Shown: one piece after another, positions 5,873 to 49,304 of the stretch
Numbering within the stretch: the stretch's first letter is position 1
Layout: every line of letters begins with the position of its first letter
Source of the DNA: Hoylesella timonensis 4401737 = DSM 22865 = JCM 15640
GTDB lineage: Bacteria > Bacteroidota > Bacteroidia > Bacteroidales > Bacteroidaceae
DNA: 64,000 bases
Direction: 5' to 3'
Assembly (NCBI RefSeq): GCF_000455445.1
Contig: NZ_HG417091.1
Span: 90,396-154,395 of the forward strand
The notes under the pieces: model-generated
Database searches by the model: none
The model's input: the letters and a program-made list of their open reading frames with translations, nothing else
What the model was told of the DNA's origin: nothing
Translations under genes and position numbers: made by a program

Positions 5873-6772
5873 ATGAAGAAGATTAGAGCAGCCATAGTTG
5901 GTTATGGCAATATTGGAAAATTTACGGTTGAAGCCGTTGAAGCCGCTGAAGACTTTGAGTTAATAGGAATTGTACGCAGACAAGGCGCAGAAAACAAGCC
6001 AGCCGAATTGGCACCTTACAAAGTTGTACAGGATATTAAAGAACTCGAAGGTGTAGATGTTGCCATTTTGGCAACGCCTTCACGCAGTTGTAAAGAATAT
6101 GCAGAAAAGATATTGCCCTTGGGCATCAATACCGTTGACAGCTTTGATATTCATACAGATATTGTAGACTATCGCAGCGCACTAATGCCTCTCTGTAAAG
6201 AACATCACGCTGTAAGCATCATTAGTGCAGGCTGGGATCCGGGTTCTGACTCGGTTGTTCGCACGTTGATGCAAAGCCTTGCACCCAAAGGGTTGAGCTA
6301 TACTAACTTTGGACCAGGCATGTCAATGGGACACAGCGTGTGTGCAAGAAGCAAGAAAGGTGTGAAGAACGCCCTCTCCATGACAATTCCTTTGGGCGAA
6401 GGTATTCACAGACGTATGGTGTACGTAGAGTTGGAAGAAGGTGCTACACTCGATGAGGTAACCAAAGAGATAAAAGCCGACCCTTATTTTGCACACGATG
6501 AAACGCATGTAATGGCAGTTGACTCGGTAGATGCCGTAAAAGATATGGGACACGGTGTACACTTAGTGCGCAAGGGAGTGAGTGGCAAGACACAAAACCA
6601 ACGCATGGAGTTTACCATGAGCATTAACAATCCAGCCTTGACCGCACAAGTTTTGGTTAATGTGGCACGTGCCAGCATGCACCAACAACCCGGTTGTTAT
6701 ACCATGGTAGAGATACCTGTAATAGATTTGTTGGCAGGTGAACGAGAAGATTTAATAAAGGCACTGGTCTAA
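5873..6772 (+). CDS. ddh: meso-Diaminopimelate D-dehydrogenase
   Basis: A 299-residue cytosolic NADPH-dependent enzyme that reversibly makes meso-2,6-diaminopimelate from tetrahydrodipicolinate and ammonia. This is the one-step branch of the lysine/peptidoglycan DAP pathway. The N-terminal Rossmann motif GYGNIG (residues 10-15) is intact. The family stretches RSCKEYAEKILPLGINTVDSFD and ISAGWDPGSDSVVR follow, and the latter contains substrate-binding residues in known Ddh structures. Length matches the family (about 300-330). It is transcribed alone and faces the convergent S9 peptidase across a perfect 15-bp inverted repeat. Confidence 0.93.
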   Translation: MKKIRAAIVGYGNIGKFTVEAVEAAEDFELIGIVRRQGAENKPAELAPYKVVQDIKELEGVDVAILATPSRSCKEYAEKILPLGINTVDSFDIHTDIVDYRSALMPLCKEHHAVSIISAGWDPGSDSVVRTLMQSLAPKGLSYTNFGPGMSMGHSVCARSKKGVKNALSMTIPLGEGIHRRMVYVELEEGATLDEVTKEIKADPYFAHDETHVMAVDSVDAVKDMGHGVHLVRKGVSGKTQNQRMEFTMSINNPALTAQVLVNVARASMHQQPGCYTMVEIPVIDLLAGEREDLIKALV

Positions 6773-6828
6773 GTACTATTTAGGCAATCCAATTTTGGAC
6801 AACTTTGTGAACGAAAAGTTCACTCATC

Positions 6829-6884
6829 AACAAGGTCATGGTAGAAGGGCAATGCTGTTGACAGCCCGATACCATGACCTTGTT
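6829..6884. terminator. Long inverted repeat between convergent genes
   Basis: Perfect 15-bp arms (AACAAGGTCATGGTA at 6829-6843 and its complement at 6870-6884) enclose a 26-base loop that can itself pair through GGGC/GCCC. It sits between the convergent ends of ddh (6772) and the S9 peptidase (6923). That position suits a bidirectional terminator, although the T tracts are weak. Confidence 0.6.
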
Positions 6885-6922
6885 TCTATGCAAAACAATT
6901 TTTACTTGTTTCCCTTTGTCGC

Positions 6923-9385
6923 TTAAAGTGCTTTCTTAGGATACAGTGCATCCCACCATGTACTGTCGTTTTTAAGCCACTTGGCAAACCAAGCAAAAAT
7001 AGTGTTTTGCCATTTTTGTCGCTTATGATAGTCGAGTATATGGTGGTTCTCACCGTCAACTACCACAAAAGCTGTTGGTCTACCCAAGAGTTTCAAGGCT
7101 GTAAACATCTGTATGCTTTCGCCAATGGGTACGTTGGTGTCGGCACTGCCATGCAAAAACAATAATGGTGTGTGGATTTTATCCGCATGGAATAGCGGGC
7201 TTTGGTTCACGTACAATTCGGGATTGCTCCATGGATAGCTGTTGGCCATGGACACTTCGCTATAACTATATCCCCAATATCCTTCACCCCAATAGCTGGT
7301 ATGGTCGCTAATGCCAGCATGTGAAATGGCAGCAGCAAAAATATCGGTTTGAGTTTGCAGGTATTGAGTCATGAATCCTCCATACGAAGCACCAATGCAT
7401 CCTATTTTCTTTGCATTGATAAAAGCATGTTCTGCTACAAATTTCTTCGTTCCTTCGATAATATCTTCTGCCACACCTTTGCCAGCTGTATTGACATGTC
7501 GTGACGAGAACTCCTGCCCAAACCCTACTGCACCACTGGGCTGCAATACATATACCACATAGCCCAGTGCGGCATAGGCATGTTGTGGGTAGCGTGTTTC
7601 AAAGTTACGACTGGTGGGCGAGCACCCTCCATAGTAGTTGACGATGAGCGGATATTGCTGAGTAGCATCAAAATTTGGCGGCAAATAATACCTTCCACAA
7701 ATTGTATCTCCACGCGAATTAACAAAATTCCAAGTCTTGCAAGCACCTAATTGAACGTTTGCCAATGTTTCTTTATTGGTGTCTTCCACAAGTTTTGGTT
7801 GAATGCGACGTAGATTTATCGTATAAACTCGGTCGGCATTCGAGGCACTCTCACCGCTATAAACCATGGTTGGCGCTTGACTTGCAAAAGCAATTTGTTT
7901 GACAACCTCTTCGGGTTGAGCCATCTTTTGAATTTTATGGGTACGCATATCGCACCGAAACAAGTGAACATAGTCACGATCCATGGCAGTAAAATATAAC
8001 TGACCATCGTATTTATTCCATCTAAACTTACTTACACCAGGCTTAAAATCCTTGGTTAATGGCGTCACTTTTCTATTTGCAATATTCAAAAGATATAGTT
8101 GATAATCGTACATACTGGGTATTTTCCCTTGAGGAACATTCGCCCCAATACCGTGAAATGCTTCGGGCGATGCCATTACTACGATTTCTTTTCCAGACGG
8201 AGCGTAAGCAGCATCCGCTACGAAGCCGTCATCCTTCACCAATTGCTCTACACTCAAAGTACGCAAGTCCATACTGTAAATGTTGTACAAGGTTGTGGGT
8301 CGCTGGGTGAGACGAGTACGGTTGGTCATGAACAGCAAGTGAGTTCCTTCGGCAGAGATGTCCAACAAGCTAACGTTGCGATATCCAAAAGTGAGCGGTT
8401 GGCAAAGACCTGTTGCAAAATCATATTTCAACAAGCTTACCCTGTCACGCCAACCTGGCTGTCGATCCTCGGGTTCAAGAATCTCATAAATAGCTTTATC
8501 TTCCTTTGGTCCTTTGTTTTGTTTCAGCAATATAAGATAATCTTCTGTGGGGGACATGACAAAATTGCCCGTTGGAAGATTTGTTGCTAAGACATTTTCT
8601 TGACCTCCATTGACATCGGTAACGACCAATTCGCGACCTTGGCTGCCTTCACGTGTCCAATAATACTGCATAGAACGCGGCATCCAGTGGATAGCATGAT
8701 GGGTAGATGCAACAACTGCACCTGACTTGAGATTTGTAACTTTCCAAGTATAAGTTGTTTTTCCGCCTTTCACGACATCACGATAAGCAGTAATTAAATA
8801 TTCTCCCGTAGCCGAAAGTTCTACGCCAGTGACAAACTTGCGGTCGGTAAGATGACTTAACGTGAAGAGTTGATGAGTTGGATCAATGTGCAGTAATTCG
8901 CTCTGCGGTGAATCTATTTGAAGTTGAAGCGTGTCCAATTGTCCCTTGGTTGAGAGGTATTTAATAACAACATCGTGAGTTTTGGGTTCAAGTGTCAGTT
9001 TGCCATCCTTGTTCAATTGCCCGTCTACATATAATTGATAATGTGTAAGTCCACCTACATGGAGCGTCGCATGCGCAAATCCGTCGGATTGAATTTGAAA
9101 GCCCAATAGATGAAGAGCACAAGCAGCGTCGGTTTTTGGCAAGAGAGGAGACGATAAGAACCGCCCTCGAAACACTTGATGGAGATTAACTGGGGTTTCT
9201 AAAATTGATAACGTATCGTAAGGGTGCTGGCAAACATCGACACTGTCCAATCTATAAGGTGCTTGAACAACAAATGGACCAGCATACCGAACTTTTTGGA
9301 TGGGCACATCAGCACCGAAAGAAAAATCAGCTGTCCATAAGACAGCTGATAAGAAGAGGAAAAATTTGATACCTATATTTTTCAT
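6923..9385 (-). CDS. S9-family prolyl oligopeptidase/DPP IV-like peptidase, exported
   Basis: An 820-residue peptidase that likely removes dipeptides or cleaves short peptides in the periplasm. It has an N-terminal signal peptide (about 1-24, ending in FSFGA), a beta-propeller region (about 170-540) and a C-terminal alpha/beta hydrolase domain. The nucleophile is Ser667 in GASYGG. The acid is Asp749 in HGSADTNVP, and the base is one of the His781/His782 pair in GENHH. Length is typical for the family (700-850). Its start lies 12 bases after the stop of the C1 peptidase gene, so the two are probably co-transcribed as a peptide-degradation unit. Exact cleavage preference is not predictable. Confidence 0.9.
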   Translation of the reverse strand: MKNIGIKFFLFLSAVLWTADFSFGADVPIQKVRYAGPFVVQAPYRLDSVDVCQHPYDTLSILETPVNLHQVFRGRFLSSPLLPKTDAACALHLLGFQIQSDGFAHATLHVGGLTHYQLYVDGQLNKDGKLTLEPKTHDVVIKYLSTKGQLDTLQLQIDSPQSELLHIDPTHQLFTLSHLTDRKFVTGVELSATGEYLITAYRDVVKGGKTTYTWKVTNLKSGAVVASTHHAIHWMPRSMQYYWTREGSQGRELVVTDVNGGQENVLATNLPTGNFVMSPTEDYLILLKQNKGPKEDKAIYEILEPEDRQPGWRDRVSLLKYDFATGLCQPLTFGYRNVSLLDISAEGTHLLFMTNRTRLTQRPTTLYNIYSMDLRTLSVEQLVKDDGFVADAAYAPSGKEIVVMASPEAFHGIGANVPQGKIPSMYDYQLYLLNIANRKVTPLTKDFKPGVSKFRWNKYDGQLYFTAMDRDYVHLFRCDMRTHKIQKMAQPEEVVKQIAFASQAPTMVYSGESASNADRVYTINLRRIQPKLVEDTNKETLANVQLGACKTWNFVNSRGDTICGRYYLPPNFDATQQYPLIVNYYGGCSPTSRNFETRYPQHAYAALGYVVYVLQPSGAVGFGQEFSSRHVNTAGKGVAEDIIEGTKKFVAEHAFINAKKIGCIGASYGGFMTQYLQTQTDIFAAAISHAGISDHTSYWGEGYWGYSYSEVSMANSYPWSNPELYVNQSPLFHADKIHTPLLFLHGSADTNVPIGESIQMFTALKLLGRPTAFVVVDGENHHILDYHKRQKWQNTIFAWFAKWLKNDSTWWDALYPKKAL

Positions 9386-36621: not shown

Positions 36622-37014
36622 CGTTGCTTTTGTCTTGTTATTTTACCAAAAAACGGTCATCTAAAATCTTCAAAATAGAAAAAATCAATAGGCAAACGAA
36701 CTGCAAAAATGGGCTGATTTTAACAAAATAAATGCCTTTTCAAGCTAAAACATTGATTTAACGGTCTTGTAAACATGTATTAGAGGTGTTATTCACATGC
36801 TTCAGCAGCATTAAAGCATGCAAATTGCAGGCTTATCTCAATGGGTTAGTCGCCAAATATTGGTAAAAATAGAAGTATAAAGAGTTGTCTCGAACGTAAC
36901 ATCTTTAACACCAATAAATTACAAACATTGCTCATTTCTCGCATATTTGCAACCAACTTTGACGTTGGTGATTTACATGCGAGTTTTGAGAGGCACTTTG
37001 TAAAGAAAATTCAG
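36622..37014 (-). repeat. Intergenic repeat family, copy B (393 bp)
   Basis: Reverse-oriented copy of the repeat at 2940-3326 and in the same orientation and length as copy C (48912-49304). The hairpin CTCATTTCTCGCATATTTG...GTTTTGAG lies at its right end, and the conserved TTTTACCAAAAAACGG block at its left end. It fills the space between the convergent fusion gene (ends 36443) and the histidine kinase (ends 37126), at the left border of the GC-rich efflux block. No coding content is seen in 36444-37125. Confidence 0.88.
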
Positions 37015-37125
37015 TGCGGAATCTGAAGATTTGGTCATACGGATGAATGAGACCGGTAAAAGGTTGGCAGCATTTGGAACCTACGACATGACTGCCTAAT
37101 ATCTAAATACGAGACTTGAGTTGGG

Positions 37126-38265
37126 TTAATAAAATGTCAGTCGGAAGGTAGTCAGCCCGTCGGTCTTGTCGGTGATGAGGTCGATGGAGCCATTGCAGGC
37201 CTGCATGACCTGTCGGGAAATGGACAGGCCAATGCCGCTTCCCTGCGGCTTGGTGGTGAAGAAGGGTACGAAGATGTGGCTTGCCACGTCATCGGGAATC
37301 ATCGCTCCGTTGTCGGTGATGTCGATGATGACGGATTCCTGCGCGTTGGCGTATGCGCGCAGTGTGATTTGCCCCTCTTCTCCAATTGCCTCGGAAGCGT
37401 TTTTCAGTAGGTTATTGACCACCCTGCTGACGAGGCTCTCGTCAGCATACACCAGCAAGTCGCCGGGTTCTACCTCGTAGCTAACGTTCACGCCAGACTT
37501 TAACATCGGGCGAATGAGGTTCACCATGCGTTCGAGGAACGGTCTTACATAGAACAGGGTGGGCGTGGGCGTAGGCACATGCGTGAACTTGCGGTAATTC
37601 TCTACAAAGCGCATAAGTTCCTTGCTGGTTCTGCTGATGACCTCTAACCCTTGCCGTTGCTCGCCCTGTGAGTTTTGGAGTAGGGTGTCGCTCAGGGATA
37701 TGATTGGTGTGACGGTGTTCATGATTTCATGGGTAAGCACGCGGATGAGTTTCACCCAGCTGTCTATCTCCTGGTTGGCCAGCTCGCCTTTGATGTCGCT
37801 GAAGCCGATGATGCGCACCCGACGACTCTTGAGAGTAGTGTGGGTCTCGCGCAGAGAGAATCCCGCCATCTTCTCCTTGATCTGATTGATGTGGGTGATG
37901 GTCTCCACCTGCAGCAGGTTGAGTGCGGCCCGGTTGCTGCGGAGTACGATGCCCCGCTCCACGTCGACTACCAAGATGCCCGTATCCACCGAATCGAGTA
38001 TGAGCTCGAAGTATTTTTCCCGTTCTATCTGTTCATCCCGGGCGTGTTGTAGGATTTCCTTCACGCGGTTGAGCGACTCGTTGAGCAAAAGCTCGCTGCC
38101 GTATTTCTTGTTGATAGGAAACTGGAAAGTATAGTCGCCGATGTCTATGGCGTTGAACATGAATGTCACCTTGCCAAGGTCGCGTCGATACCTCCGCCAC
38201 AGTTGCAGATAGGCAACGACAGCGGCAAGCAGTGCCAGGCAGAGTATGATGACAATCACGTTCAT
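37126..38265 (-). CDS. NtrB/NtrY-like sensor histidine kinase
   Basis: A 379-residue kinase with one N-terminal membrane segment (about 3-23) and almost no periplasmic part, so it probably senses at or inside the membrane. A PAS-like domain (about 85-150) precedes the phosphoacceptor His179 (LTHEIMNTVTPI), of the NtrB/NtrY type. The ATPase domain has an N box (NNLLKNASEAIGEEG), a G1-like DNGAMIP where the usual DNGxGI is altered, an F box (FVPFFTTKPQ) and an intact GSGIGLSIS. It starts three bases after the stop of the sigma-54 activator gene, and is presumably the partner kinase. Confidence 0.92.
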   Translation of the reverse strand: MNVIVIILCLALLAAVVAYLQLWRRYRRDLGKVTFMFNAIDIGDYTFQFPINKKYGSELLLNESLNRVKEILQHARDEQIEREKYFELILDSVDTGILVVDVERGIVLRSNRAALNLLQVETITHINQIKEKMAGFSLRETHTTLKSRRVRIIGFSDIKGELANQEIDSWVKLIRVLTHEIMNTVTPIISLSDTLLQNSQGEQRQGLEVISRTSKELMRFVENYRKFTHVPTPTPTLFYVRPFLERMVNLIRPMLKSGVNVSYEVEPGDLLVYADESLVSRVVNNLLKNASEAIGEEGQITLRAYANAQESVIIDITDNGAMIPDDVASHIFVPFFTTKPQGSGIGLSISRQVMQACNGSIDLITDKTDGLTTFRLTFY

Positions 38266-38268
38266 AGC

Positions 38269-39597
38269 CTATAGTCCGTAACGTTTGATTTTGTTGTATA
38301 AAGTCTGTCGGGAGATGCCTAGCCTGAACGCCACCTGTGAGAGGTTGCCGTCGCATTCGCAGATGGTTTTCTCGATGAGTCTTCGTTCCATCTCGTCGAG
38401 CGTGCGCACGTCCTCAATGGGTTTCTCCTGTCGGGCGGGACCGCTCTCTATGTCGTCCTCGGCAATAGTAGTGCCGCTGCACAGGATAACCGCTTTCTCC
38501 ATGGCATGTTGCAGTTCGCGAATGTTACCGTACCAAGGTTGCTCTTCGAGTTTGGTCATGGCGCCAGCCGAGAATTTTGTCTCCGGCTTGTTGTACATCG
38601 CCGCATAGCGTTTGAGGAAGATGCCGGCCAAGGCCGTGATGTCTTCCCTGCGCTCGCGCAAAGGCGGCAGATGCAGGTGAATGGTGTTGACGCGGTAGAG
38701 CAGGTCTTCACGAAACTCGCCGTTGGCCACCATTGCAGACAGGTCTCGGTTGGTGGCGCAAATCAGTCGCACGTCGATGGGAATTTGCTCGCTGCCTCCC
38801 ACACGCACGATGCTCCTGCGCTGCAAAGCCGTGAGCAGCTTTGCCTGCAACGCATAACTCAGGTTGCCTATCTCATCGAGAAACAACGTGCCTCCCTCCG
38901 CCAGTTCAAACTTTCCTGGCTTGTCTGTTTTGGCATCCGTGAAAGCACCTTTCGTGTGTCCGAAGAGTTCGCTTTCAAAAAGCGTCTCCGTGATAGCTCC
39001 CATGTCGATGGGCATCATCCGGTGTCCGTGTCGTTTCGACAGGCGGTGAATCTCTTTGGCAAGCACTTCCTTGCCAGTTCCGTTCTCGCCTGTGATGAGG
39101 ATGTTGGCATCGGTGGCTGCTACTTTCTCTACCATCAGGCGCAGATCTTGCATCGCAGGCGACATGCCCCAGTACATTTCTCCCTCATGGATGGTGGCGT
39201 TGCGGATGTTTTTCTTGGTTTTCCGGTAGGCATTGGTGAGCGTGTCGATGAGTTTGGCATTGTCGAAAGGTTTTACCACAAAGTCGGTAGCACCCTCCTT
39301 GATGCCCGTCACCGCCAATTCAATGTCGGCGTATGCCGTGAACAGCACCACCTGCGTGCGTGGACTCAGTTTCTTTATCTCGCGCAGCCAGAAGAGGCCC
39401 TCGTTGCCATTGTTGATGCCGCTGCGGAAATTCATGTCGAGCAGCACCACGTCGGGTCTGTCCTCGCGTAGGCGGGTAGGGATATTCTCTGGTTTGGCTA
39501 TTGCCGCGACATGCTCGAATACATTTTCTATCAGCATCTTCACTGTGGTGAGGATGTTGCGGTTGTCATCAACTATCAGTATGCTACCTTGTTTCAT
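38269..39597 (-). CDS. Sigma-54-dependent response regulator (NtrC family)
   Basis: A 442-residue activator. The receiver domain has Asp10/Asp11 and phosphoacceptor Asp54 (VVLLDMNF). The AAA+ domain has Walker A GENGTGKE (170-177), the sigma-54 contact loop GAFTDA (217-222), Walker B GGTLFLDE (235-242) and an intact R-finger region. A Fis-type helix-turn-helix closes the protein ([24 protein letters not shown]). Once phosphorylated it should drive sigma-54 promoters; the likely target is the divergent efflux operon, which has a -24/-12 promoter and paired palindromes. A vegetative promoter (TATCTTTG, 39674-39667) precedes it. Confidence 0.95.
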
Positions 39598-39666
39598 CTA
39601 TTGTCTAATGTCTGTCTGCCAGTTGCACATCCTTTCACGGAGGTGGCGAAAAGGTTGTTGTTTTTG

Positions 39667-39697
39667 CAAAGATATTCTTTTTTCTCCTTAGTATCAA
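39667..39697 (-). promoter_or_regulatory. Vegetative promoter of the regulator/kinase pair
   Basis: On the minus strand TTG (39697-39695) and TATCTTTG (39674-39667) are 20 bases apart, a good Bacteroidetes promoter. It gives a leader of about 60 bases before the activator ATG at 39597. Confidence 0.7.
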
Positions 39698-39770
39698 GCC
39701 ATTGTCAAAAAAACATATCATAAAAACCGATGCGCCGCATGAGAGGACATCGAGTGGATTGTGGGTCTCA

Positions 39771-39810
39771 CTGTCAAATAATTGGGCAGCAGTGTCTAAT
39801 TGTTGGACAG
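39771..39810. promoter_or_regulatory. Paired palindromic sites, likely activator binding (UAS)
   Basis: Two 19-bp imperfect palindromes, 39771-39789 (CTGTC...GGCAG) and 39792-39810 (GTGTC...GACAG), share a YTGTC-N9-GRCAG layout and start exactly 21 bp apart, two helical turns. They lie about 55-95 bases upstream of the -24 element, the usual place for enhancer sites of NtrC-type activators. Binding by the adjacent regulator is inferred. Confidence 0.65.
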
Positions 39811-39863
39811 GCTTGTAAACGTGCTTTTTGCGCAACGTGCAGATAGATAGGAGGTTATATTTC

Positions 39864-39879
39864 TGGCACGGCATTGGCA
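39864..39879 (+). promoter_or_regulatory. Sigma-54 (-24/-12) promoter of the efflux operon
   Basis: TGGCACG-N4-TGGCA gives the invariant GG (39865-39866) and GC (39877-39878) separated by exactly 10 bases. Only one base differs from the consensus TGGCACR-N4-TTGCW. Transcription would start near 39890, only three bases before the ATG at 39893, so the tolC-type gene would be nearly leaderless unless its true start is further in. Confidence 0.75.
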
Positions 39880-39892
39880 ACTGTTTAAGCGT

Positions 39893-41218
39893 ATGAGAAC
39901 AGCAATTACGATAATATTATTAGATCTGGCCGCTCTTCCGCTATTGGCGCAAGAGTCATGGACCATGAACCGCTGCATTCAGTATGCGGTGGAGCACAAC
40001 AACGGAGTGCGCAAACAGCGATTGGAGGTGCGACAGAGCAAGGTTGACGAGCGCACGGCGAGACTCGACCTTCTGCCCACAGTGTCGGCACAGACCACGG
40101 CGCAGTATGCCTGGGGCCGTAACATCAACCCAGAGACCAACACCTACAACACCATCACCACCTTCAACAATTATTACAGCATTGGGGCGGAGGTGCCATT
40201 GTTTGACGGTGGCCGTACCTGGAATGCCTTTCAGCAAGCTCGACTGGCGCGTGCCAAAAGTATGACGGCCCTGCAAAAGACAGCCGACGACAAGGCCATA
40301 GCCGTGATGGCGAAATTCGTGGAGGCGGTGTACAGCCAGCAGAGCATTGGCTTGGCACGGCGCAAATTGGCCGACAGTCAGGCTTTGCTTCGCAAGACCC
40401 GCGCGATGTTCGACCTTGGGGAGAAGTCGCGACCCGACGTGGCGCAGATGGAAAGCCAAGTGGCAGAGGACGATTACAACCTGCTGCACCAGCAGAATGC
40501 GGCCAGTTTGGCGTTGATGGCCTTGAAAGCGGAGATGAATTTCCCCGTAGGCGATTCGCTTGCCCTCGACACTCTGTTGACCGCGAGCCTGTCTGCTGCC
40601 GACGATGCTGGAAGCCTTTATGCCGCTTTCCAAGCTGAATCACCGGAAGTGAAGACGGCAGCGTTCAATGTCAAGAACGCCCGCTACCATTATCTTATAC
40701 AACGCGGACAGCTGCTGCCCGTCCTAGCATTGGGCGGAGGAATCAACACCAACTATTACCGCAATCTCTCGCAGGGCAGCAGTAAGACCGACAACTTCGG
40801 CAAACAGTTCAACAACAACATGGGCGAATATGTCTATCTTTCCCTCTCCATCCCCCTTTTCATGCCTTCGCGCTGGTGTGCCGCACGCAGGGCGAGAGCC
40901 GATTGGGAGGCAAGCAAGCTCGATTTGGAAGACGCGCGCCGCAAACTGCACGATGACATTGCGCAGGCAGTGCTCGATCGTGACGGCTATTCGCGCGAGC
41001 TCATGAAGATGGAACGGAAGACAGCGGCCGACTCCATAGCCTGGCATCTGGCGTCGCGCAAGTACGAGGAGGGCATGCTCTCGACTTTCGACCTGCATAC
41101 AGCGGCGCAAACCTTGCTCGACAGCCGCATCAAACTGCTGCAAATGCGGTTGATGCTTGAGATGAAACAACGATTGGTCAACTATTATAAAGGAATACGA
41201 ACATGGACATTGAAATAA
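39893..41218 (+). CDS. TolC-family outer-membrane efflux protein
   Basis: A 441-residue outer-membrane channel with a signal peptide (about 1-19, ending LPLLAQ). Two OEP repeats are visible: the N-terminal strand/helix block (SWTMNRCIQYAVEHNNGVRKQRLEV) and a second repeat from about residue 245. Long amphipathic helices rich in Ala, Gln and Arg form the periplasmic tunnel. It is the first gene of the efflux operon, and its last 16 bases overlap the start of the HlyD gene. With the adaptor and ABC permeases it makes a MacAB-TolC-like tripartite exporter; the substrate is unknown. Confidence 0.93.
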   Translation: MRTAITIILLDLAALPLLAQESWTMNRCIQYAVEHNNGVRKQRLEVRQSKVDERTARLDLLPTVSAQTTAQYAWGRNINPETNTYNTITTFNNYYSIGAEVPLFDGGRTWNAFQQARLARAKSMTALQKTADDKAIAVMAKFVEAVYSQQSIGLARRKLADSQALLRKTRAMFDLGEKSRPDVAQMESQVAEDDYNLLHQQNAASLALMALKAEMNFPVGDSLALDTLLTASLSAADDAGSLYAAFQAESPEVKTAAFNVKNARYHYLIQRGQLLPVLALGGGINTNYYRNLSQGSSKTDNFGKQFNNNMGEYVYLSLSIPLFMPSRWCAARRARADWEASKLDLEDARRKLHDDIAQAVLDRDGYSRELMKMERKTAADSIAWHLASRKYEEGMLSTFDLHTAAQTLLDSRIKLLQMRLMLEMKQRLVNYYKGIRTWTLK

Positions 41219-42456
41219 AACAAAAGAAGTTTTGGATACCCCGAAAGTATTGGACTTGGATAGGGGGAGGCGTTATTGTGGTGGCTGCGCTGCTGTGGTT
41301 GGCTCTGGGAAATTTCTCATCGACACTGAAAGTCGACAGTCGGGGGCTGAGCATTGGCGATGTGAAGCAAGCGCAGTTTGACGACTATGTGAGCGTAGAC
41401 GGCAATGTGGTGCCCATCCATGTGGTGCAGATCTCGCCGGAAGAAGGCGGCGTAGTCATGGAGAGAGTGGCGGAGGAAGGCTCCCATGTCAGGAAGGGCG
41501 ATGTCATTGTGAAGCTGAACAACAGCAATCTCGACCTTGAAATCCTCAATGCCGAGAGTGAACTGGCGGAGAAGCAGAACATGCTTCGCAACACGCAGAT
41601 TACGATGGAACAGGACCGACTCAACAATCAGAACGAAGCGGCGCAACTGTCAATGGACGTACAGGCCAAGAAGCGAACCTACAACCATCAGACAGCATTG
41701 CAGCAGGAACAGCTTAATAGCCGCGAGGAATATCTCAAAGCAAAGGAAGACTACGAGCTGGCCGTGAAAAAAAATGAGCTGATTGCGCAACGACTCAAGA
41801 AAGACGCGCAGCTCCGTCGCGCGCAGATGAACCAGATGAACGACAATCTCTCGTCGATGAGGCGCAATGTGGAATTGGTACGACAGCGCAAGGAGCATCT
41901 CAACGTGCGTTCGCAAATCGACGGCGAGGTGGGACAGCTCAACATCGAATTAGGGCAGAGCATCTCTCCGGGACAGAAGATTGGTGTCATCAACGACCTC
42001 AGCGATTATAAAGTGGAGGCGCAGGTTGACGAACATTACATCGATCGGGTGCACCAAGGGCTCACGGCAACCTTCGAACAGAACGGCAAGCATTATTCTC
42101 TCACCGTGCGCAAGGTGTACCCCGAGGTGAAAGATGGCAGGTTCAAGATAGATTTCGTGTTCAGCGGCAAGCGTCCGACCAACATCCGAACGGGTCAGAC
42201 CTATTATGTCGACCTGCAGTTGGGCGAGTCGAAGCGGGCGGTGCTCATCCCCAAGGGAACTTTCTACAGCGTGACGGGCGGGCAATGGATCTTCGTACTC
42301 GACAAGGATGGCAAGAAAGCCTATCGTCGAAACATCCGCATCGGACGACAGAATCCGCAGTATTACGAGGTGCTGGAAGGTCTTCAGCCCGGCGAGCGAG
42401 TCATCGTAAGCGGCTACGAAAGCTACAAAGACAACGAAATTTTGGTTTTGGAATAA
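41203..42456 (+). CDS. HlyD/MacA-family periplasmic adaptor
   Basis: A 417-residue membrane-fusion protein with a short cytosolic N-terminus, one membrane anchor (about 20-38) and a periplasmic body. The lipoyl half-motif VVPIHVVQISPEEGGVVMERVAEEGSHVRKGDVI is followed by a long coiled coil (about 100-240) with Gln/Glu/Arg heptads, the returning lipoyl half and a beta-barrel (QVDEHYIDRVHQGLTATF). It ends with a membrane-proximal domain (VIVSGYESYKDNEILVLE). It bridges the permease and TolC. It overlaps the tolC-like gene by 16 bases, and the first permease follows after 70 bases. Confidence 0.93.
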   Translation: MDIEIKQKKFWIPRKYWTWIGGGVIVVAALLWLALGNFSSTLKVDSRGLSIGDVKQAQFDDYVSVDGNVVPIHVVQISPEEGGVVMERVAEEGSHVRKGDVIVKLNNSNLDLEILNAESELAEKQNMLRNTQITMEQDRLNNQNEAAQLSMDVQAKKRTYNHQTALQQEQLNSREEYLKAKEDYELAVKKNELIAQRLKKDAQLRRAQMNQMNDNLSSMRRNVELVRQRKEHLNVRSQIDGEVGQLNIELGQSISPGQKIGVINDLSDYKVEAQVDEHYIDRVHQGLTATFEQNGKHYSLTVRKVYPEVKDGRFKIDFVFSGKRPTNIRTGQTYYVDLQLGESKRAVLIPKGTFYSVTGGQWIFVLDKDGKKAYRRNIRIGRQNPQYYEVLEGLQPGERVIVSGYESYKDNEILVLE

Positions 42457-42526
42457 CAAGTAAAATGAATTGGTGCAGGAGCAATAAGCAACTCATATTG
42501 GCATCGAAATAACAAGCAAATAAGTC

Positions 42527-44914
42527 ATGAAGCAACTATTCAATCTCAAATCCTATTTCACCTTCCTCTCGAGGAACAAGGTGTACGCTGCCATCAACGT
42601 GTTCGGACTGAGCATCTCGCTCATGTTCGTGCTGCTCATCGGGGTTTATACATGGCAGGAGAAGAGTGTCGACCGTCAGCACAGCAAGGGCGACCGCATC
42701 TACGCGATGGGGATCGACTTCTATGAAGACCATGATAAGGGACTTGGATTCCACCATGCCATACTGAGTCGTTTTCGCAAGAATTATCCGGAAATAGAAA
42801 ACACCTGCGGCTTTGTCGTCTCAGACATGCGGCTGCAAAAGGGAGATGAGTTCTACAAGGCAACGGTGTTGGAGACCGATTCTACCTTCTTCTCCATGTT
42901 CGATTTCAAGCTGCTGCAGGGCGACAGGCAGACCTGTCTGAACGACCGGAACAACGTGGTCGTTACCAAGCGGTTTGCCAACAAATGGTTTGGCACGGAG
43001 GAAGTGCTCGGTCGCGAGATTACATGGAACGACAGCATTCGGTACCATGTCACCGGCGTGGTGGAGGATTTCGACAATACGCTCATCAACAAGAACGTGG
43101 AAATGATCATCGACTTCTCCTGGGAACGGTATCACAACACGGCGAATATGGACGAGTCTTTCCCCAAGGCAGTGAATTTTTCGGGTGCAAGCATCTTCCT
43201 GCAAGTGAGAAAGGGTGCAAAGATGATGGGGCGAGAGAAAGAGTTCGGCAAATTCATTCACTCGTTCTGGCCTGATTTCGACAAGGTGCCCTTCTATTGC
43301 AGACCGTTCTTGGTGCCGCTGAACAAAATATATTTCTCTGGTTACGACAACTACAACGACAACTTGCGCACCGGAAACAGCCGACTGGTCAACCTGCTTT
43401 TCATTGTAGGCTTGGTGGTGCTGCTCTTTGCCATCATGAACTACATCAACCTCACGGTGGCGCAATCGGGCTATCGTGCTCGGGAGATGGCGGCACGACG
43501 TCTCTTCGGCGCAAAACGCAAGCACATCATCCTGCGGCTGATGATAGAAAGCTCAACGCTCTGTTTCATCTCCCTGCTGGTAGCAGTGTCGCTTGCGCTG
43601 GCGTTCGCCCCAATGACTGGTCGCTTGCTCAGCACCACCATGGACATGCGCGTGCTCGCAACGCCTGCCGTCATCGGCCTGTTGCTTGCCTTCACGCTGC
43701 TCGTCGGCTTCATCTCGGGCATCATCCCCGCCTATGTCTTGTCGAAAGCCAAGCCTATCGAGGTGGTGAGGGGAACCTTCCGGCACCGCACGAAGATGGT
43801 GCTGGGCAGGGTGTTCATCGTGGTTCAGAACATCATCACCATCGTGATGCTCGCCTGTGCCACCATCATGTCGCTGCAAATGCTGCACCTTGTGAATGCG
43901 CCATTGGGTTTCAACACGAAGAACCTGATTTGCCTCTATCAAGGAGATGCTTTCAGCAGCACCGACTTCCCAGTGTTCCTCAACAAGGTAAAGCAGGTTT
44001 CGGGAGTGAAATTAGTGTCCTGTTCTGATGGTACCCCGCAGGACGGCGGCAACAACAACACGGTGACGGGAAAGGACAAGGTCTATTCTTTCCAAATGCT
44101 CATCGGCGACCCCAACTATCTGAAGGTGTATGGGCTGTCGCTAAAACATGCCAACCATGTGGGACATCGGCCTGTAATTTATCTCAATGACCAGGCAGTG
44201 GGTGATTTGAAGATGAAGCCCACGGACAGTCACATGAGTGATTTTTACAAACAAACAAAATTCTTTCTTTTCCCAGATGATGCGGCGTTTGGCGGCATTC
44301 TCAACGATTTCCGACTGCGTAACATCACGGAGACCAAAGTAAATCCGCTGTTGCTCTGCATCAAGGACAAGGTGGAGAATCCATGGAACGTTACGATTCT
44401 GTTTGAGGGAAATCCCGCTAAAACCTACAAGGAGATACAGCGCATATATAAAGAGGTGTTCCATGAGGAGCTAAACCAGGCACATCCGTTCGTTGACAAG
44501 AGCATTGAATCGGTGTTTGAGTCGGAGTTGAGACTTTCAAAGATCATCGCCCTCTTTGCTTTCATCGCCGTCGTCATCTCGCTGTTGGGACTTGTCGCCA
44601 TGTCCACCTACTTCATTCAGCAGCGCAGCAAGGAGATTGCCATCCGCAAGGTGTTCGGCTCCACGAGCAACCGAATCCGCCGTGACCTCATCCGTACCTT
44701 CCTACAATACGTGGGCGTCGCTTTCATTATCAGCGTGCCCGTCATCTGGTATACTATCAGCGAATGGATTAGCCAATACAGTTACCGTATCGTGTGGTGG
44801 CCGTGGATCATCGTTGCTGGCATCCTCGTGCTGCTTATCTCGTTCTGTGCAGTGGCCATTCAGAGCTACATGGCCAGCAACGAAAACCCCGTAAATAACA
44901 TTAAACAAGAATAA
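42527..44914 (+). CDS. ABC transporter permease, FtsX/MacB type (first)
   Basis: A 795-residue permease without a fused ATPase. A first membrane helix (about 20-42) is followed by a MacB-type periplasmic domain (about 45-285). Three helices follow with an FtsX core (FAIMNYINLTVAQSGYRAREMAARRLFGAKRKHI). Another helix and a second periplasmic domain come next. A second FtsX core closes the protein (LVAMSTYFIQQRSKEIAIRKVFGSTSNRI), ending ASNENPVNNIKQE. This duplicated layout is standard for Bacteroidota ABC3 permeases. It must pair with the separate ATPase at 48130-48792. The DUF2807 gene begins two bases after its stop. Confidence 0.93.
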   Translation: MKQLFNLKSYFTFLSRNKVYAAINVFGLSISLMFVLLIGVYTWQEKSVDRQHSKGDRIYAMGIDFYEDHDKGLGFHHAILSRFRKNYPEIENTCGFVVSDMRLQKGDEFYKATVLETDSTFFSMFDFKLLQGDRQTCLNDRNNVVVTKRFANKWFGTEEVLGREITWNDSIRYHVTGVVEDFDNTLINKNVEMIIDFSWERYHNTANMDESFPKAVNFSGASIFLQVRKGAKMMGREKEFGKFIHSFWPDFDKVPFYCRPFLVPLNKIYFSGYDNYNDNLRTGNSRLVNLLFIVGLVVLLFAIMNYINLTVAQSGYRAREMAARRLFGAKRKHIILRLMIESSTLCFISLLVAVSLALAFAPMTGRLLSTTMDMRVLATPAVIGLLLAFTLLVGFISGIIPAYVLSKAKPIEVVRGTFRHRTKMVLGRVFIVVQNIITIVMLACATIMSLQMLHLVNAPLGFNTKNLICLYQGDAFSSTDFPVFLNKVKQVSGVKLVSCSDGTPQDGGNNNTVTGKDKVYSFQMLIGDPNYLKVYGLSLKHANHVGHRPVIYLNDQAVGDLKMKPTDSHMSDFYKQTKFFLFPDDAAFGGILNDFRLRNITETKVNPLLLCIKDKVENPWNVTILFEGNPAKTYKEIQRIYKEVFHEELNQAHPFVDKSIESVFESELRLSKIIALFAFIAVVISLLGLVAMSTYFIQQRSKEIAIRKVFGSTSNRIRRDLIRTFLQYVGVAFIISVPVIWYTISEWISQYSYRIVWWPWIIVAGILVLLISFCAVAIQSYMASNENPVNNIKQE

Positions 44915-44916
44915 AT

Positions 44917-45648
44917 ATGAAAAAGAAAATCTTTTTTTGCATGACAGCTGTCCTTGTCTTGCTGTCATCATGTATCGTTGTACAAGCCAACTCATACGAA
45001 GTAGCCAATGACGAAAGCAGAACTTACCCGCTGAGAGGTTTCTCGGCAATCGAAGTCTCCGGAGCCATCGATGTAGAGTTTGTGCAGAGTAGCAATCAAA
45101 GCTACCGTGTAAAGGCGGTAGGCTCACCCCGCATGTTGCCGAAGTTGCAGATGGAAGTGCGCAGTCAAGTGCTAACCATCAAGCAAAAACCTAACCCCGG
45201 CATTCATTCAGGCAATTATCACCTCACGGTTTATGTGCAGTCACCCAACTTGCAGTCGGTCAAAGTTTCTGGCGCATGTGATGTGCTCATTCGGTCGCTC
45301 AATACCACGGCAGTGCGGTTGGAGGCACGCGGTTCGAGTGATATCAAGGTCGATCGGCTGGCGGCCAACAGCTTGGAAGTCCGCTTGCAGGGTTCTTCTG
45401 ATGCTCGTCTGGCTGGCAAAGTGTCGAAAGCCGTATATACCTGTTCCGGTTCTTCCGATGTGAGAGCCTACGATCTCAAGGCGAAAGACGTGTCGGCCAC
45501 ATGCTCCGGCTCGTCGGATGTCTATTGCTTCGCCACCCGTTCCGTCAGTGCCAAAGCCTCTGGCTCAAGCGACATCCGCATCAAGGGCAACCCCATCCAG
45601 CGACAATTGGATAAATCAGGGTCTTCGGATATTCGCATATTACATTAA
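44917..45648 (+). CDS. DUF2807 (head GIN domain) exported protein
   Basis: A 243-residue exported protein with a signal sequence (about 1-25). It has a serine- and glycine-rich body in which GSSD recurs six times (ARGSSDIKV, LQGSSDARL, CSGSSDVRA, CSGSSDVYC, ASGSSDIRI, KSGSSDIRI). The regular spacing suggests rungs of a beta-helix, the fold known for DUF2807. The opening RGFSAIEVSGAIDVEFVQ is the family signature. A Cys at position 19 (SSCIVV) could be a lipobox. Function is unknown; its position between two permease genes, with gaps of 2 and 11 bases, suggests it serves the exporter or the same stress response. Confidence 0.85.
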   Translation: MKKKIFFCMTAVLVLLSSCIVVQANSYEVANDESRTYPLRGFSAIEVSGAIDVEFVQSSNQSYRVKAVGSPRMLPKLQMEVRSQVLTIKQKPNPGIHSGNYHLTVYVQSPNLQSVKVSGACDVLIRSLNTTAVRLEARGSSDIKVDRLAANSLEVRLQGSSDARLAGKVSKAVYTCSGSSDVRAYDLKAKDVSATCSGSSDVYCFATRSVSAKASGSSDIRIKGNPIQRQLDKSGSSDIRILH

Positions 45649-45659
45649 TCATCTATATT

Positions 45660-48062
45660 ATGTTACATCTTATCCAACAGTCTTGCCGCATGGCTTGGCG
45701 CAATCTCTTCCGCCCCAGGCAGCACAATGTGGCCAAGATTCTCTGTTTGGCACTCGGATTGAGTGTCAGTGCGGTCATCATTGCCGAGATTTATTATGAA
45801 CAGACTTTCGACCAGAGTTATCCCGATTACGACCGTATCTGCCGTGTGACCGAGGGCTTCAAGATGAAAGCACAGGAGTTCACGGAGGGCTTTAATACGT
45901 CGGGCGGCGTGGCACCGATGATGAAACGAACCATTCCACAGGTGGAACTGGCTACGCGCACCAATCCAATCGTGACCGATGGAGAGGTGGAAACTGATGA
46001 CAAAGTACGTGTCCGCGCCGATGTCTACTTTGCCGACAGCTGCTTCTTCCGCATGTTTCCGGCCCGCATCCTTGAGGGTGATGCCGATCGGGCACTCACG
46101 GAACCGTTCTGTTGCGTAGTGAATCGCTCGACGGCAAAACGCTTGGGCGGCAACGTTGTGGGTCGGCACATCGAGTCGAAGGAAATGCCGGGCCTGAAGC
46201 TAACCATCGTGGGCGTCTACGAGGATTATCCTCACAATTCAACGTTCCACACCTATGATGTGATCGGTTCAATGAAGACGCAGAAGAATTTTAGCTTCGA
46301 CGGTCAGGATAACCTGGTCGGTAACGACCGTTACATCAGTTTCGTACGTCTCAGGAAAGGTGTCTCTCCCGATTCGTTGACGCCCCTTATACACCGCATG
46401 ATACAGACGCATTATCCCGTCCAGGAGCTGCAACAGTCGGGCACGTGGCTCACTTACAAGGTCACCCCCATATCTTGCTATTACACGGAGGCGGACAATA
46501 TACGCCAAATGTTCTGGATTCTGTCGCTCTTAGCCATCATTCTGCTTTCGGCCTCGATACTCAACTACGTGCTAATTGTGGTGGGCAATTTGGTCAGCCG
46601 TGCCCGTGAGATGGCGGTAAGAAAATGCTATGGTGCCGGACGTGGAGCCGTCTACAGCATCACCTTCAGCGAAGTGTGCCTGCATCTCGTACTTGCCCTC
46701 ATGTTAGGAGCAGCTCTGTTGTGGGCTTGCCATGGCACAATCGAACAGTTGTTGTCGGCTCCGCTCTCTGTGTTGGTATTCAATCGTGGTGCGTGGATTT
46801 TGCTTTTAATTGCGTTGATGGTGCTCTTCGTGGGTGGTATCGTACCCGGATGGCTTTACAACCGCATGCCCGTGACCATTGCATTTCATGGCTATGTCGA
46901 GGCCCGACGTCGCTGGAAGGTGGCGCTTTTAGGGCTTGAGTTTGCCATGGTGAGTTTCCTTTTAGGTCTGCTTTTCATTGTCAGCATGCAGTATAGGCAT
47001 ACGGTTGACTTTGACTTAGGCTATCAGTGTGCCGGTCTCGCGACTGTTGACATCACCGCGCTGCAGCCCGATGAACGGCAGACGGCATACGACGAGGTAG
47101 GCCGTATGAGCGGCGTGCGTCAGGTGTCGGCCTGCAATACGTTTCCTTTCTATGGTATGAGTGGTAACAACGTAACTGTTCCTGGGGAAGAATCACAGCT
47201 ATTCAATATCGCCGATCTCTACACCGTCGCCGACCATTACTTTGATATGCTGCAGATTCCTGTTGTCGCAGGTCGTGTCTTCGCATCGGGCAGCGACAGC
47301 CTCAAGCAAGTAATGGTGAGTCAAGACTTCGCCTCTATGATGAAGAAACTGCGCGGATGGGACGACGTGGTGGGTCGGAAGGTGATTATCAGTGAGCATA
47401 GCGGCAACGAAAACAAAGATTTACTGACCATCGTTGGCGTTTATCGTGACATTCATCTCGGCAGTGCCGAGAACAATGGGAGGGACAGACCCTCTGTGAT
47501 TTTCTACGGACGTGCGGCCAACTGGATGAACAATTACCTGTTGATTCAGCTTGACGATTTCAGCGCAGAGAAGCTGACCGACATCCAGACGCGGCTTCAG
47601 CGGTTCTTCCCGGGCAAAACAGTCATGGTCGAGAGCGTGGAGAACCTCAAGAACATGCAGTATGTTGCAACCCGCAACTTCCGCAACGGTGTGATGACGG
47701 TTGGCATCGTGGTGCTTTTCATCGCGCTGATGGGACTCATTGGTTATGTCAGCGACGAGGTGAACCGTCGTCATAAGGAAATCGCCATCCGCAAGGTGAA
47801 CGGGGCGTGCGTGGGCGATGTGATGCGCATTTTCCAATTGAACATCCTTCGTACCGCCATTCCTGCCGTGCTGATTGGGGCTGTCGGTGCCTACTGGGTA
47901 GCCGCACAGTGGCTGCAGCTCTATGACAACCGCATCGCGTTGACGGTGTGGCCGTTCCTCGTGACAAGCGTCCTCGTGCTGCTCATCATTGTTGCCGTTG
48001 TGGCAATCAACTGCTGGCGCGTGGCCAACAGCAACCCGGTGGAGTATCTGAAACAAGAGTAA
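45660..48062 (+). CDS. ABC transporter permease, FtsX/MacB type (second)
   Basis: An 800-residue paralogue of the permease at 42527-44914, with the same layout: an N-terminal helix (about 28-46), a MacB periplasmic domain, an FtsX core (ILNYVLIVVGNLVSRAREMAVRKCYGAGRGAV), a second periplasmic domain and a second FtsX core (LIGYVSDEVNRRHKEIAIRKVNGACVGDV). It ends NSNPVEYLKQE. Together the two permeases could form a heterodimer energised by the downstream ATPase, or two exporters sharing it. Confidence 0.93.
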   Translation: MLHLIQQSCRMAWRNLFRPRQHNVAKILCLALGLSVSAVIIAEIYYEQTFDQSYPDYDRICRVTEGFKMKAQEFTEGFNTSGGVAPMMKRTIPQVELATRTNPIVTDGEVETDDKVRVRADVYFADSCFFRMFPARILEGDADRALTEPFCCVVNRSTAKRLGGNVVGRHIESKEMPGLKLTIVGVYEDYPHNSTFHTYDVIGSMKTQKNFSFDGQDNLVGNDRYISFVRLRKGVSPDSLTPLIHRMIQTHYPVQELQQSGTWLTYKVTPISCYYTEADNIRQMFWILSLLAIILLSASILNYVLIVVGNLVSRAREMAVRKCYGAGRGAVYSITFSEVCLHLVLALMLGAALLWACHGTIEQLLSAPLSVLVFNRGAWILLLIALMVLFVGGIVPGWLYNRMPVTIAFHGYVEARRRWKVALLGLEFAMVSFLLGLLFIVSMQYRHTVDFDLGYQCAGLATVDITALQPDERQTAYDEVGRMSGVRQVSACNTFPFYGMSGNNVTVPGEESQLFNIADLYTVADHYFDMLQIPVVAGRVFASGSDSLKQVMVSQDFASMMKKLRGWDDVVGRKVIISEHSGNENKDLLTIVGVYRDIHLGSAENNGRDRPSVIFYGRAANWMNNYLLIQLDDFSAEKLTDIQTRLQRFFPGKTVMVESVENLKNMQYVATRNFRNGVMTVGIVVLFIALMGLIGYVSDEVNRRHKEIAIRKVNGACVGDVMRIFQLNILRTAIPAVLIGAVGAYWVAAQWLQLYDNRIALTVWPFLVTSVLVLLIIVAVVAINCWRVANSNPVEYLKQE

Positions 48063-48129
48063 GAAAGGAACATCCGATTGACCGGATTACAAACCATAAA
48101 ACATATAAAAACCATAATATTTTAAGAAA

Positions 48130-48792
48130 ATGATCAAAGTAGAAAATTTAAGCAAATCGTTCCGTACGGAAGAAGTGGAGACCATTGCGCTCAACAATGT
48201 GTCGTTCCAAGTAGAAGACAAGGAGTTTGTTGCCATCATGGGGCCTTCGGGCTGCGGCAAGTCAACCTTGCTCAACATCCTCGGGCTGCTCGACAATCCC
48301 ACGGGCGGCAAGTACTGGTTAGGCGACAAGGAAGTGTCGGCGCTGAAAGAGAAAGATCGCACCGACGTGCGCAAGGGAGAGATAGGGTTCGTGTTCCAGA
48401 GCTTCAACCTTATCGACGAGCTCAACGTGGAAGAGAACATCGAGCTGCCCCTGACATACCTTGGGATGTCGAAGGCCGAGCGCAAGCAGAAAGTGAAGGA
48501 CATCATGAAACGCATGGGCATCAGTCATCGCGCCAAGCACTTCCCCCACCAGCTCTCGGGTGGTCAGCAGCAGCGTGTGGCCATCGCCAGGGCCGTGGTG
48601 TTTGGGCCGAAACTGATTCTCGCCGATGAGCCGACAGGTAATCTCGACTCGAAAAACGGTGCCGAGGTGATGGGCCTACTCACCGAACTCAATCGCGAGG
48701 GAACCACCATCGTCATGGTTACTCACAACGAGCATGACGCCTCCATTGCCCATCGCATCGTGCGACTGTTCGACGGACAGATCGTTGGTTGA
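48130..48792 (+). CDS. ABC transporter ATP-binding protein (MacB/LolD type)
   Basis: A 220-residue ATPase with Walker [10 protein letters not shown] (38-46), Q-loop VFQSFNLI, signature LSGGQQQR (from about 142), Walker [13 protein letters not shown] (Asp166/Glu167) and switch region VTHNEHDA. Short, soluble MacB/LolD-like subunits of this kind power FtsX-type permeases for lipoprotein, peptide or drug export. It is the last gene of the sigma-54-linked operon and is followed by a 14-bp inverted repeat. Confidence 0.95.
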
Positions 48793-48799
48793 TTCAGGA

Positions 48800-48862
48800 G
48801 CAAAGCGTAAGCAAGTCAGGTGGCTCGGCGGGCTGCTTTGGCTGAACGTGCTTACGCTTTGC
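48800..48862 (+). terminator. Inverted repeat closing the efflux operon
   Basis: GCAAAGCGTAAGCA at 48800-48813 and its exact complement at 48849-48862 form a 14-bp stem with a 35-base loop, followed by CCCC and a later T run. Position supports a terminator; the distant T tract is atypical. Confidence 0.5.
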
Positions 48863-48911
48863 CCCTATGACTTTTTCGGCAAGCATCCATATCATCCGTG
48901 GTCAATGAAAC

Positions 48912-49304
48912 CGTTGTTTTTGTCTTATTATTTTACCAAAAAACGACCATTGAAAATCTTCAAAATAGAAAAAATCAATAGGCAAACGACATGCAAAAAT
49001 GCGCTGATTTTCACAAAATAAACGTCTTTTCAAGCTGAAACATTGACTTTACGCACTTGGAAACATGTATTAGGGGCGTTATTCACATGCTTCAGCAGCA
49101 TTGAAGCATGCAAATAGCAGGCTCATCTCAATGGGTTAATCGCAAAAAAATGGTAAAGATAGGAAAGAAAAGAGTTGTTTAAGGCGTAACATCTTCAATG
49201 CCAATAAATTACAAACATCGCTCATTTCTCGCGTATTTGCGACCAACTTTGAGGTTGGTGATTTACACGCGAGTTATGAGAGGCACTTTGTAAAGAAAAT
49301 TCAG
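48912..49304 (-). repeat. Intergenic repeat family, copy C (393 bp)
   Basis: Same orientation and same length as copy B, in direct repeat across the efflux block, and reverse to copy A. The hairpin CTCATTTCTCGCGTATTTG...GAGTTATGAG keeps its pairing although bases differ from copy B, and the small CATGCTT/AAGCATG hairpin is also kept. It lies 120 bases after the ABC ATPase gene. The stretch 49305-49534 shows nothing recognisable. Confidence 0.88.

Follow-up and report, generated by a model that had tools for sequence, protein, structure and literature searches.

The efflux operon and its divergent two-component system

The window, that is, the whole 64,000-nucleotide stretch of the Hoylesella timonensis genome analysed here, holds an operon of transport genes and, oriented divergently from it, the genes of a response regulator and a histidine kinase:

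37126-38265, minus strand: histidine kinase with one N-terminal hydrophobic segment (domain match and hydropathy)
38269-39597, minus strand: NtrC-type response regulator, the presumed activator (receiver, Sigma54_activat and Fis HTH domains)
39893-41218, plus strand: TolC-type outer membrane efflux protein (PF02321)
41203-42456, plus strand: HlyD-type adaptor (PF13437, PF16576)
42527-44914, plus strand: MacB_PCD/FtsX permease 1 (domain match)
44917-45648, plus strand: DUF2807 head-GIN domain protein (PF10988)
45660-48062, plus strand: MacB_PCD/FtsX permease 2 (domain match)
48130-48792, plus strand: ABC transporter ATPase (PF00005)

The gene order TolC-HlyD-FtsX-GIN-FtsX-ABC, established by domain matches, agrees with the original prediction of an efflux operon. 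As had also been proposed, the divergent gene encodes a sigma-54 activator, with receiver, Sigma54_activat and Fis-type HTH domains and an intact GAFTDA motif, and its partner histidine kinase is encoded next to it. The rpoN gene is present in the genome (one match, E 4.6e-46), together with four activators that hold a full Sigma54_activat domain.

According to hydropathy, the kinases of the clade to which the window belongs mostly have one hydrophobic segment, at the N-terminus, and no periplasmic-looking part (the start of the one in L174 is doubtful), and those of other families exhibit zero, one or two hydrophobic segments near the N-terminus. Two further loci contain, adjoining a kinase gene, a frame that matches solely residues 1-129 and 397-439 of the regulator (L230:6501-7016, plus strand; L229, about 6679-7194, minus strand), in which the AAA+ domain is missing and the receiver is followed immediately by the Fis-type HTH. 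This truncated regulator is possibly a competitor at the same sites.

A putative sigma-54 promoter preceded by paired palindromes

An intergenic region of 295 bp separates the start of the regulator gene (39597, on the minus strand) from that of TolC (39893, on the plus strand). It shows, in this order, a TAnnTTTG box, two palindromes, an IHF-like site, the -24/-12 promoter element and the ATG of TolC:

39667-39674, minus strand: candidate promoter of the regulator gene, TATCTTTG, matching the TAnnTTTG box (Bacteroidetes consensus as printed in the available text of PMC7366714)
39772-39788, plus strand: distal putative activator palindrome, TGTCAAATAATTGGGCA, with a second copy 21-23 bp away in 94 of 94 operon-linked modules listed
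39793-39809, plus strand: proximal putative activator palindrome, TGTCTAATTGTTGGACA, kept in the genus and beyond
39833-39845, minus strand: IHF-like site, CAACGTGCAGATA, matching 8/9 positions of a relaxed consensus (YAANNNNYTGATW) and 7/9 of the printed one (YAANNNNTTGATW)
39864-39879, plus strand: sigma-54 -24/-12 promoter, TGGCACGGCATTGGCA, read from the sequence and kept in the genus loci
39890-39891, plus strand: predicted transcription start, 2-3 nt ahead of the ATG by the -24/-12 numbering

In the promoter, GG occupies 39865-39866 and GC 39877-39878, so that the GG-N10-GC spacing is exact, and a single mismatch separates the element from TGGCAC-N5-TTGC. Direct reading thus bears out the promoter at 39865-39878, one base off the sigma-54 consensus, and likewise the two palindromes, whose starts are 21 bp apart and which lie about 55-95 bp upstream of the promoter GG. 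The presence of promoter and paired palindromes upstream of the efflux operon is therefore a confirmed observation. In their 19-bp extents the palindromes are CTGTCAAATAATTGGGCAG (39771-39789) and GTGTCTAATTGTTGGACAG (39792-39810). The motif first given for them, YTGTC-N9-GRCAG, stands as regards the pair itself and fails in its flanks: the second palindrome starts with G, leaving TGTC-N9-GRCA (17 bp) as the common core. The distal palindrome is imperfect, with GGCA instead of GACA.

Taken one at a time, these elements say little. The pattern TGGCAY-N5-TKGC appeared in 15 of 20,000 mononucleotide shuffles of the 295-bp intergenic region, and TGGCAY-type -24/-12 matches number 29 genome-wide vs 15 for the reversed pattern, the majority being intragenic; a lone match is weak evidence, its signal being poorly separated from noise by the genome scan. 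A single palindrome match is also weak evidence: the window contains 11 copies of TGTC-N9-GRCA for 4.6 expected, and 2 of 100 shuffles have as many. The pair at 21-23 bp, by comparison, was found in 0 of 20,000 mononucleotide shuffles of the same region. The scan of the whole genome that the original prediction had suggested recovered, with a looser pair pattern, the pair of the window and one further site, which lacks the AT-rich core and has a different spacing; this site was rejected as a second operator pair. The pattern of one palindrome plus promoter matched solely the module of the window, and because neither scan gave a credible extra module, no second target is claimed in this genome.

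Some further matches have been recorded. A TGTC-N9-GACA palindrome within the second FtsX permease gene (46022-46038) is probably due to chance. Other intergenic -24/-12 matches of the genome (L054, L064, L072, L076) lie 37-110 nt ahead of genes, of which the one at L072, judged by its N-terminus, presumably encodes a protein resembling a small heat-shock protein. The upstream ends of the regulator gene in L021, L023, L028 and L030 also carry, by eye, a TAnnTTTG box, which in several relatives is located a few bases from the regulator ATG, so that the regulator message may also be nearly leaderless. A plasmid similarity search with the intergenic region gave no match, and an Rfam search of 37000-49000 found nothing.

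Conservation within the genus

A search for the regulator covered 120 genomes of the genus, of which 80 were used for comparison: all 18 with an ortholog, 11 with intermediate relatives and 51 others, for the most part of higher completeness. When the window is aligned with the eight genus loci that have TolC nearby, the positions of palindromes, promoter and ATG are fixed, and the intervening DNA has diverged. The pattern of the module was found in 14 of the 18 genomes with a regulator ortholog (at least 60% identity) vs 3 of the 62 others, and the three matches in ortholog-less genomes all lack the AA...TT palindromic core. Fisher's test for the co-occurrence gives p of about 1e-9, or 2e-12 with the three core-less matches set aside, values that overstate the independence of modules related by descent. 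The reversed pattern matched once in the same 80 genomes (G075).

Two genomes with a rearranged locus are informative. In G075 (L225) a distance of 4.3 kb separates operon and regulator, and both palindromes and the promoter are retained with the operon. In G058 (L226) the operon is inverted, the palindromes keep 7/8 half-site bases, the gap is 55 bp and the promoter is retained; this module was found by hand and raises the count to 15 of 18 ortholog genomes. The module thus travels with the operon and is not tied to the neighbourhood of the regulator. Loss of the palindromes in relatives that keep the operon, which would have spoken against their role, was not seen, even in these two loci. 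In G079 and G080 the module is located about 20-24 kb from the regulator. Three ortholog genomes depart from the general picture: G042 and G045 (99% complete) encode a regulator with 70-73% identity and the same recognition helix, and the module is absent from them by both the strict and the relaxed pattern; in G015 (79% complete) an ortholog was found and no module. The nearest named relative among the loci listed is Hoylesella buccalis ATCC 35310 (L120), with 97% identity for the regulator and 98% each for kinase and TolC.

The recognition helix of the regulator follows the module. Each of the 38 distinct regulator C-termini with at least 55% identity has the sequence RQTLY[NS]K, which is found in none of 21 more distant regulator tails (below 46% identity), a set that includes two of the three paralogs of the window's genome as well as regulators of about 43-46% identity from module-less genomes of the genus. 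This tracking is a correlation, which is compatible with recognition of the palindromes by the helix.

Conservation beyond the genus

One palindrome plus promoter was found in 46 of 399 genomes of the family vs 1 for the reversed pattern, some of the 46 matches falling in coding or unrelated sequence. A tighter scan of this kind yielded at least 120 modules in at least 118 loci, with about 0.6 chance matches expected. The second palindrome formed no part of the scan pattern, and the operon-linkage counts were made on the pattern-fetched set only. Among the matches listed, 94 of the 120 modules are followed by relatives of genes of the window (operon genes in 93 cases, the regulator in 1), a number that does not represent independent trials, the modules being related by descent. 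A second palindrome is present in each of the 94, at 21 bp (53 modules), 22 bp (39) or 23 bp (2), and the gap between palindrome and promoter in them is 52 (1), 53 (9), 54 (24), 55 (45) or 56 bp (15). The other 26 modules listed have gaps of 50-60 bp, and 19 of them are without a second copy. The regulator is encoded divergently upstream in 25 of 80 tabulated loci. Cultured carriers among the 80 of 118 loci listed by name include Phocaeicola vulgatus ATCC 8482 and Hoylesella buccalis. From these data, the same switch looks like a control system shared by many related gut and oral bacteria.

A strict two-palindrome pattern was matched in 4 of 392 genomes of the order, all of family f95 (one of them, G609, holds four strict modules), in 1 of 392 genomes of a phylum sample (again G609), and in 0 of 386 sampled genomes outside the order. 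Its absence means little, because the pattern is too strict and misses the window itself.

Several modules lie ahead of other kinds of genes. Most named modules without a second copy belong to Bdellovibrionota, and these one-palindrome loci were rejected as members of the same regulon; the RQTLY helix is found in 0 of 7 Bdellovibrionota-type regulator tails from six genomes, a small share of their many regulators. In loci of this type (L111, L119, L126, L162, L200, L207, L213), TGTCTAA-N3-TTNGACA stands 57-60 bp ahead of a sigma-54 promoter and precedes similar short, secreted-looking proteins (MNWNNKNKAFAF..., MSKKNWTIWG...), perhaps as a different regulon with the same half-sites. Five more modules (L132, L147, L167, L100, L250) are located ahead of secreted or outer-membrane-type proteins that do not match the transport genes of the window, and so the regulon may extend past efflux.

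An IHF-like element at a fixed place in the spacer

At sigma-54 promoters, a site for IHF is usually present between enhancer and promoter. When 122 two-palindrome modules, a set that mixes loci obtained by regulator similarity with pattern-fetched ones, are aligned on the promoter, the spacer is strongly conserved and contains YAA-N4-YTGATW and WATCAR-N4-TTR about one dyad. This motif appears to be a slightly relaxed form, in both orientations, of the IHF consensus, which the available text of PMC5963220, on Vibrio hcp promoters, prints as YAANNNNTTGATW / WATCAANNNNTTR. At least 8/9 relaxed positions are matched in at least one orientation, in the expected columns, by 76 of 122 modules (shuffles: mean about 1, maximum 5); the corresponding figures are 52 modules on the printed consensus (shuffled maximum 4) and 119 for a 7/9 relaxed match (shuffled maximum 15), all read with columns and relaxed letters picked post hoc from the alignment and with mononucleotide shuffles. 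In the window, the left half is the CAACGTGCAGATA site listed above and the right half scores 6/9; in the close relative L020 both halves reach 8/9 of the relaxed consensus. The original prediction had missed this element, which holds a fixed place between enhancer and promoter. Seven IHF/HU-family matches exist in the genome of the window, and IHF may bind at 39833-39845.

The dyad has a second possible meaning, namely that the element is the operator of another, dimeric regulator (TGAT-N-ATCA) and not an IHF site. Both orientations of the motif do overlap about one dyad (in 53 of 122 modules each orientation matches at least 7/9 positions, and the offsets agree in every case). This reading is considered unlikely, with some weight left to it, since the letters of the element and its outer TTR/YAA parts match the printed IHF consensus, and its position is that in which sigma-54 promoters usually carry IHF. 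A site for IHF is accordingly the assignment kept below.

A predicted nearly leaderless TolC message

Transcripts made by sigma-54 polymerase start about 12 nt past the promoter GC, which in the window predicts a leader of 2-3 nt (GU or CGU) ahead of the AUG. Among 70 TolC modules (regulator-similarity and pattern-fetched loci mixed, restricted to modules ending in G[AG]CA), 18 precede a TolC at least 51% identical to that of the window, and in 17 of these the ATG is found 14-15 bases past the GC, the exception being L212, with the ATG at 30. Among the remaining 52, all with a TolC below 46% identity, an in-frame ATG is never found at 14-15; in 45 of them one lies at 25-37. The loci L026/L233, L246 (ATG at 14) and L226 (ATG at 13, with a further in-frame ATG at 4) are outside the 18.

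Base composition points the same way. In most close TolC modules GYGT precedes the ATG. Position 10 past the promoter is a G in 18 of 19 modules with the ATG at 14/15 (a count that includes L093 by coincidence, its TolC ATG being at 31) and in 68 of 102 others; past this G, the former continue with GT-ATG and the latter with an A-rich run. A shared G with differing sequence downstream fits a single start point and a start codon that has moved. The operon message of the window's clade should therefore be nearly leaderless, with a predicted 2-3 nt.

It could also be that this start is merely apparent and that the true start codon or the transcript start differs in the clade, given that the position has been predicted from sequence and that L120, L174 and L226 have an additional in-frame ATG upstream of the predicted start. 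This is held to be the less probable of the two cases, with perhaps one chance in a few, because the ATG is kept 14-15 bases past the GC in 17 of the 18 close modules, mostly with GYGT before it, and because no other in-frame ATG occurs past the promoter in the window, where the TolC ORF opens with a signal-peptide-like stretch that would be dropped if translation began at the next downstream Met. A nearly leaderless message is thus the preferred reading. Short leaders make up a small fraction elsewhere in the phylum: leaders below 10 nt are about 3.7% in Bacteroides thetaiotaomicron and leaderless mRNAs 5.5% in Flavobacterium psychrophilum, according to the available text of PMC7366714 and PMC9723704, respectively.

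Proposed mechanism of activation

The most probable interpretation, in which we place high confidence, is that the locus carries a switch which depends on sigma-54, is controlled by the two-component system and serves a tripartite efflux operon of the ABC type. Activation of sigma-54 polymerase by NtrC-type regulators is a textbook mechanism. Following it, the kinase (37126-38265) would phosphorylate the regulator (38269-39597), dimers of which would bind both palindromes, on the same face of the DNA at a distance of two helical turns, and form the AAA+ oligomer. A protein of the IHF/HU family at 39833-39845 would bend the 54-bp spacer, bringing the GAFTDA loops to the closed sigma-54 polymerase at 39864-39879, and ATP hydrolysis would open the complex, so that the operon would be transcribed and control would be positive. 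In the clade of the window, the message would start 2-3 nt ahead of the TolC AUG. The parts, their conservation, their rigid spacing and the co-occurrence of regulator and sites are direct observations, and the interpretation put forward originally, of promoter, paired enhancer, activator and operon acting together, appears supported across many genomes.

The pairing of regulator and palindromes relies on their co-occurrence (14/18 vs 3/62 genomes) and on the tracking of the helix, and G042 and G045 do not fit it. These two genomes, the distant modules of G079 and G080 and the three further full-domain activators of the genome would suit a different arrangement, in which another protein, e.g., a paralogous NtrC-type regulator, activates the operon and the neighbouring regulator acts elsewhere. 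Such an arrangement is very improbable in view of the co-occurrence, of the divergent position of the regulator beside the module in the 25 loci mentioned above, and of the different recognition helices in the two paralog tails recovered (of three). The neighbouring regulator therefore remains the presumed activator.

A second TAnnTTTG-like box, TATATTTC at 39856, with one mismatch, could be an additional promoter that is constitutively active and gives an ordinary leader. That the housekeeping Bacteroidetes sigma drives the operon from this box, the -24/-12 element being secondary or inactive and the palindromes binding a repressor or a non-sigma-54 activator, is least credible of all: the implied leader of about 25 nt is near the 23-nt mode of B. 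thetaiotaomicron (available text of PMC7366714), but the box is not conserved, by eye, in the other genus loci aligned, the -24/-12 element and its distance from the palindromes are conserved across families, and the adjoining regulator has GAFTDA and belongs to the sigma-54 activators.

Regarding the signal, a kinase without an evident periplasmic part beside FtsX-type permeases invites the idea of Bce-like sensing by way of the pump or the membrane, to which a low probability is given. A broader picture, quite speculative and rather improbable as a whole, would be that of a sigma-54 regulon for efflux throughout the Bacteroidales, where one clade (the window, H. buccalis and relatives) fused the activator-dependent promoter to the start codon, leaving TolC almost leaderless, and in which the kinase reads the pump or the membrane, with Bce-like logic placed on sigma-54.

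Relation to known systems

The view that sigma-54 is little studied in this phylum holds in part, given that the regulon and the -24/-12 motif have been mapped in F. psychrophilum (PMC9723704) and that sigma-54 control of FtsX-like permeases in Bacteroidia has been predicted earlier (PMC12316311), as far as the available text of both goes. In that text, neither source names, for FtsX-permease operons, an activator, an enhancer motif, an IHF-like element or a leader geometry, and the accessible parts of PMC10434189 and PMC3616915 contain nothing specific to the motif or module. In the open-access literature, no description was found of the enhancer motif and its geometry, of the IHF-like element, of the pairing with the regulator or of the near-leaderless start. 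What was known is thus the sigma-54 mechanism and the predicted control of FtsX permeases; motif, geometry and near-leaderless start appear to be undescribed in that literature.

For a sigma-54 regulon of gut and oral Bacteroidales, the results supply an activator motif, a geometry and a recognition helix in concrete form, and pump operons with the switch can be listed in any Bacteroidales genome and tested in tractable strains. The near-leaderless start, if true, is a natural test of how Bacteroidetes ribosomes initiate with almost no leader.

The transport genes resemble MacAB-TolC in that they encode TolC, an adaptor of the HlyD type and permeases that contain the MacB periplasmic core and FtsX domains. 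In E. coli MacB, the ATPase is fused to the permease, whereas the ATPase of the window is a separate gene (48130-48792), a head-GIN protein lies between the permeases, and there are two of these, both large and with two FtsX stretches each. In the BceRS-BceAB systems of Firmicutes, a kinase without an evident extracytoplasmic domain is associated with adjoining FtsX-type ABC permeases, and the regulators are of the OmpR type. The window shares such a kinase beside FtsX-type permeases, but its regulator is of the NtrC type and would work with sigma-54.

As for the regulatory sites, the response regulator GlrR/QseF of Enterobacteriaceae also has TGTC...GACA half-sites, with consensus TGTCN10GACA and the small RNA gene glmY as target (available text of PMC8745638), unlike the window, in which the spacer is 9 bp. 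The Vibrio hcp systems have a sigma-54 promoter that depends on an activator and is closely preceded by an IHF consensus, at a distance of 16 bp in Vibrio (available text of PMC5963220) and of 18 bp in the window. In contrast to them, the target in the window is an efflux operon and the palindrome is TGTCYAA-N3-TTRGACA, the spacings of the window type are rigid over several families, and in one clade the promoter abuts the start codon.
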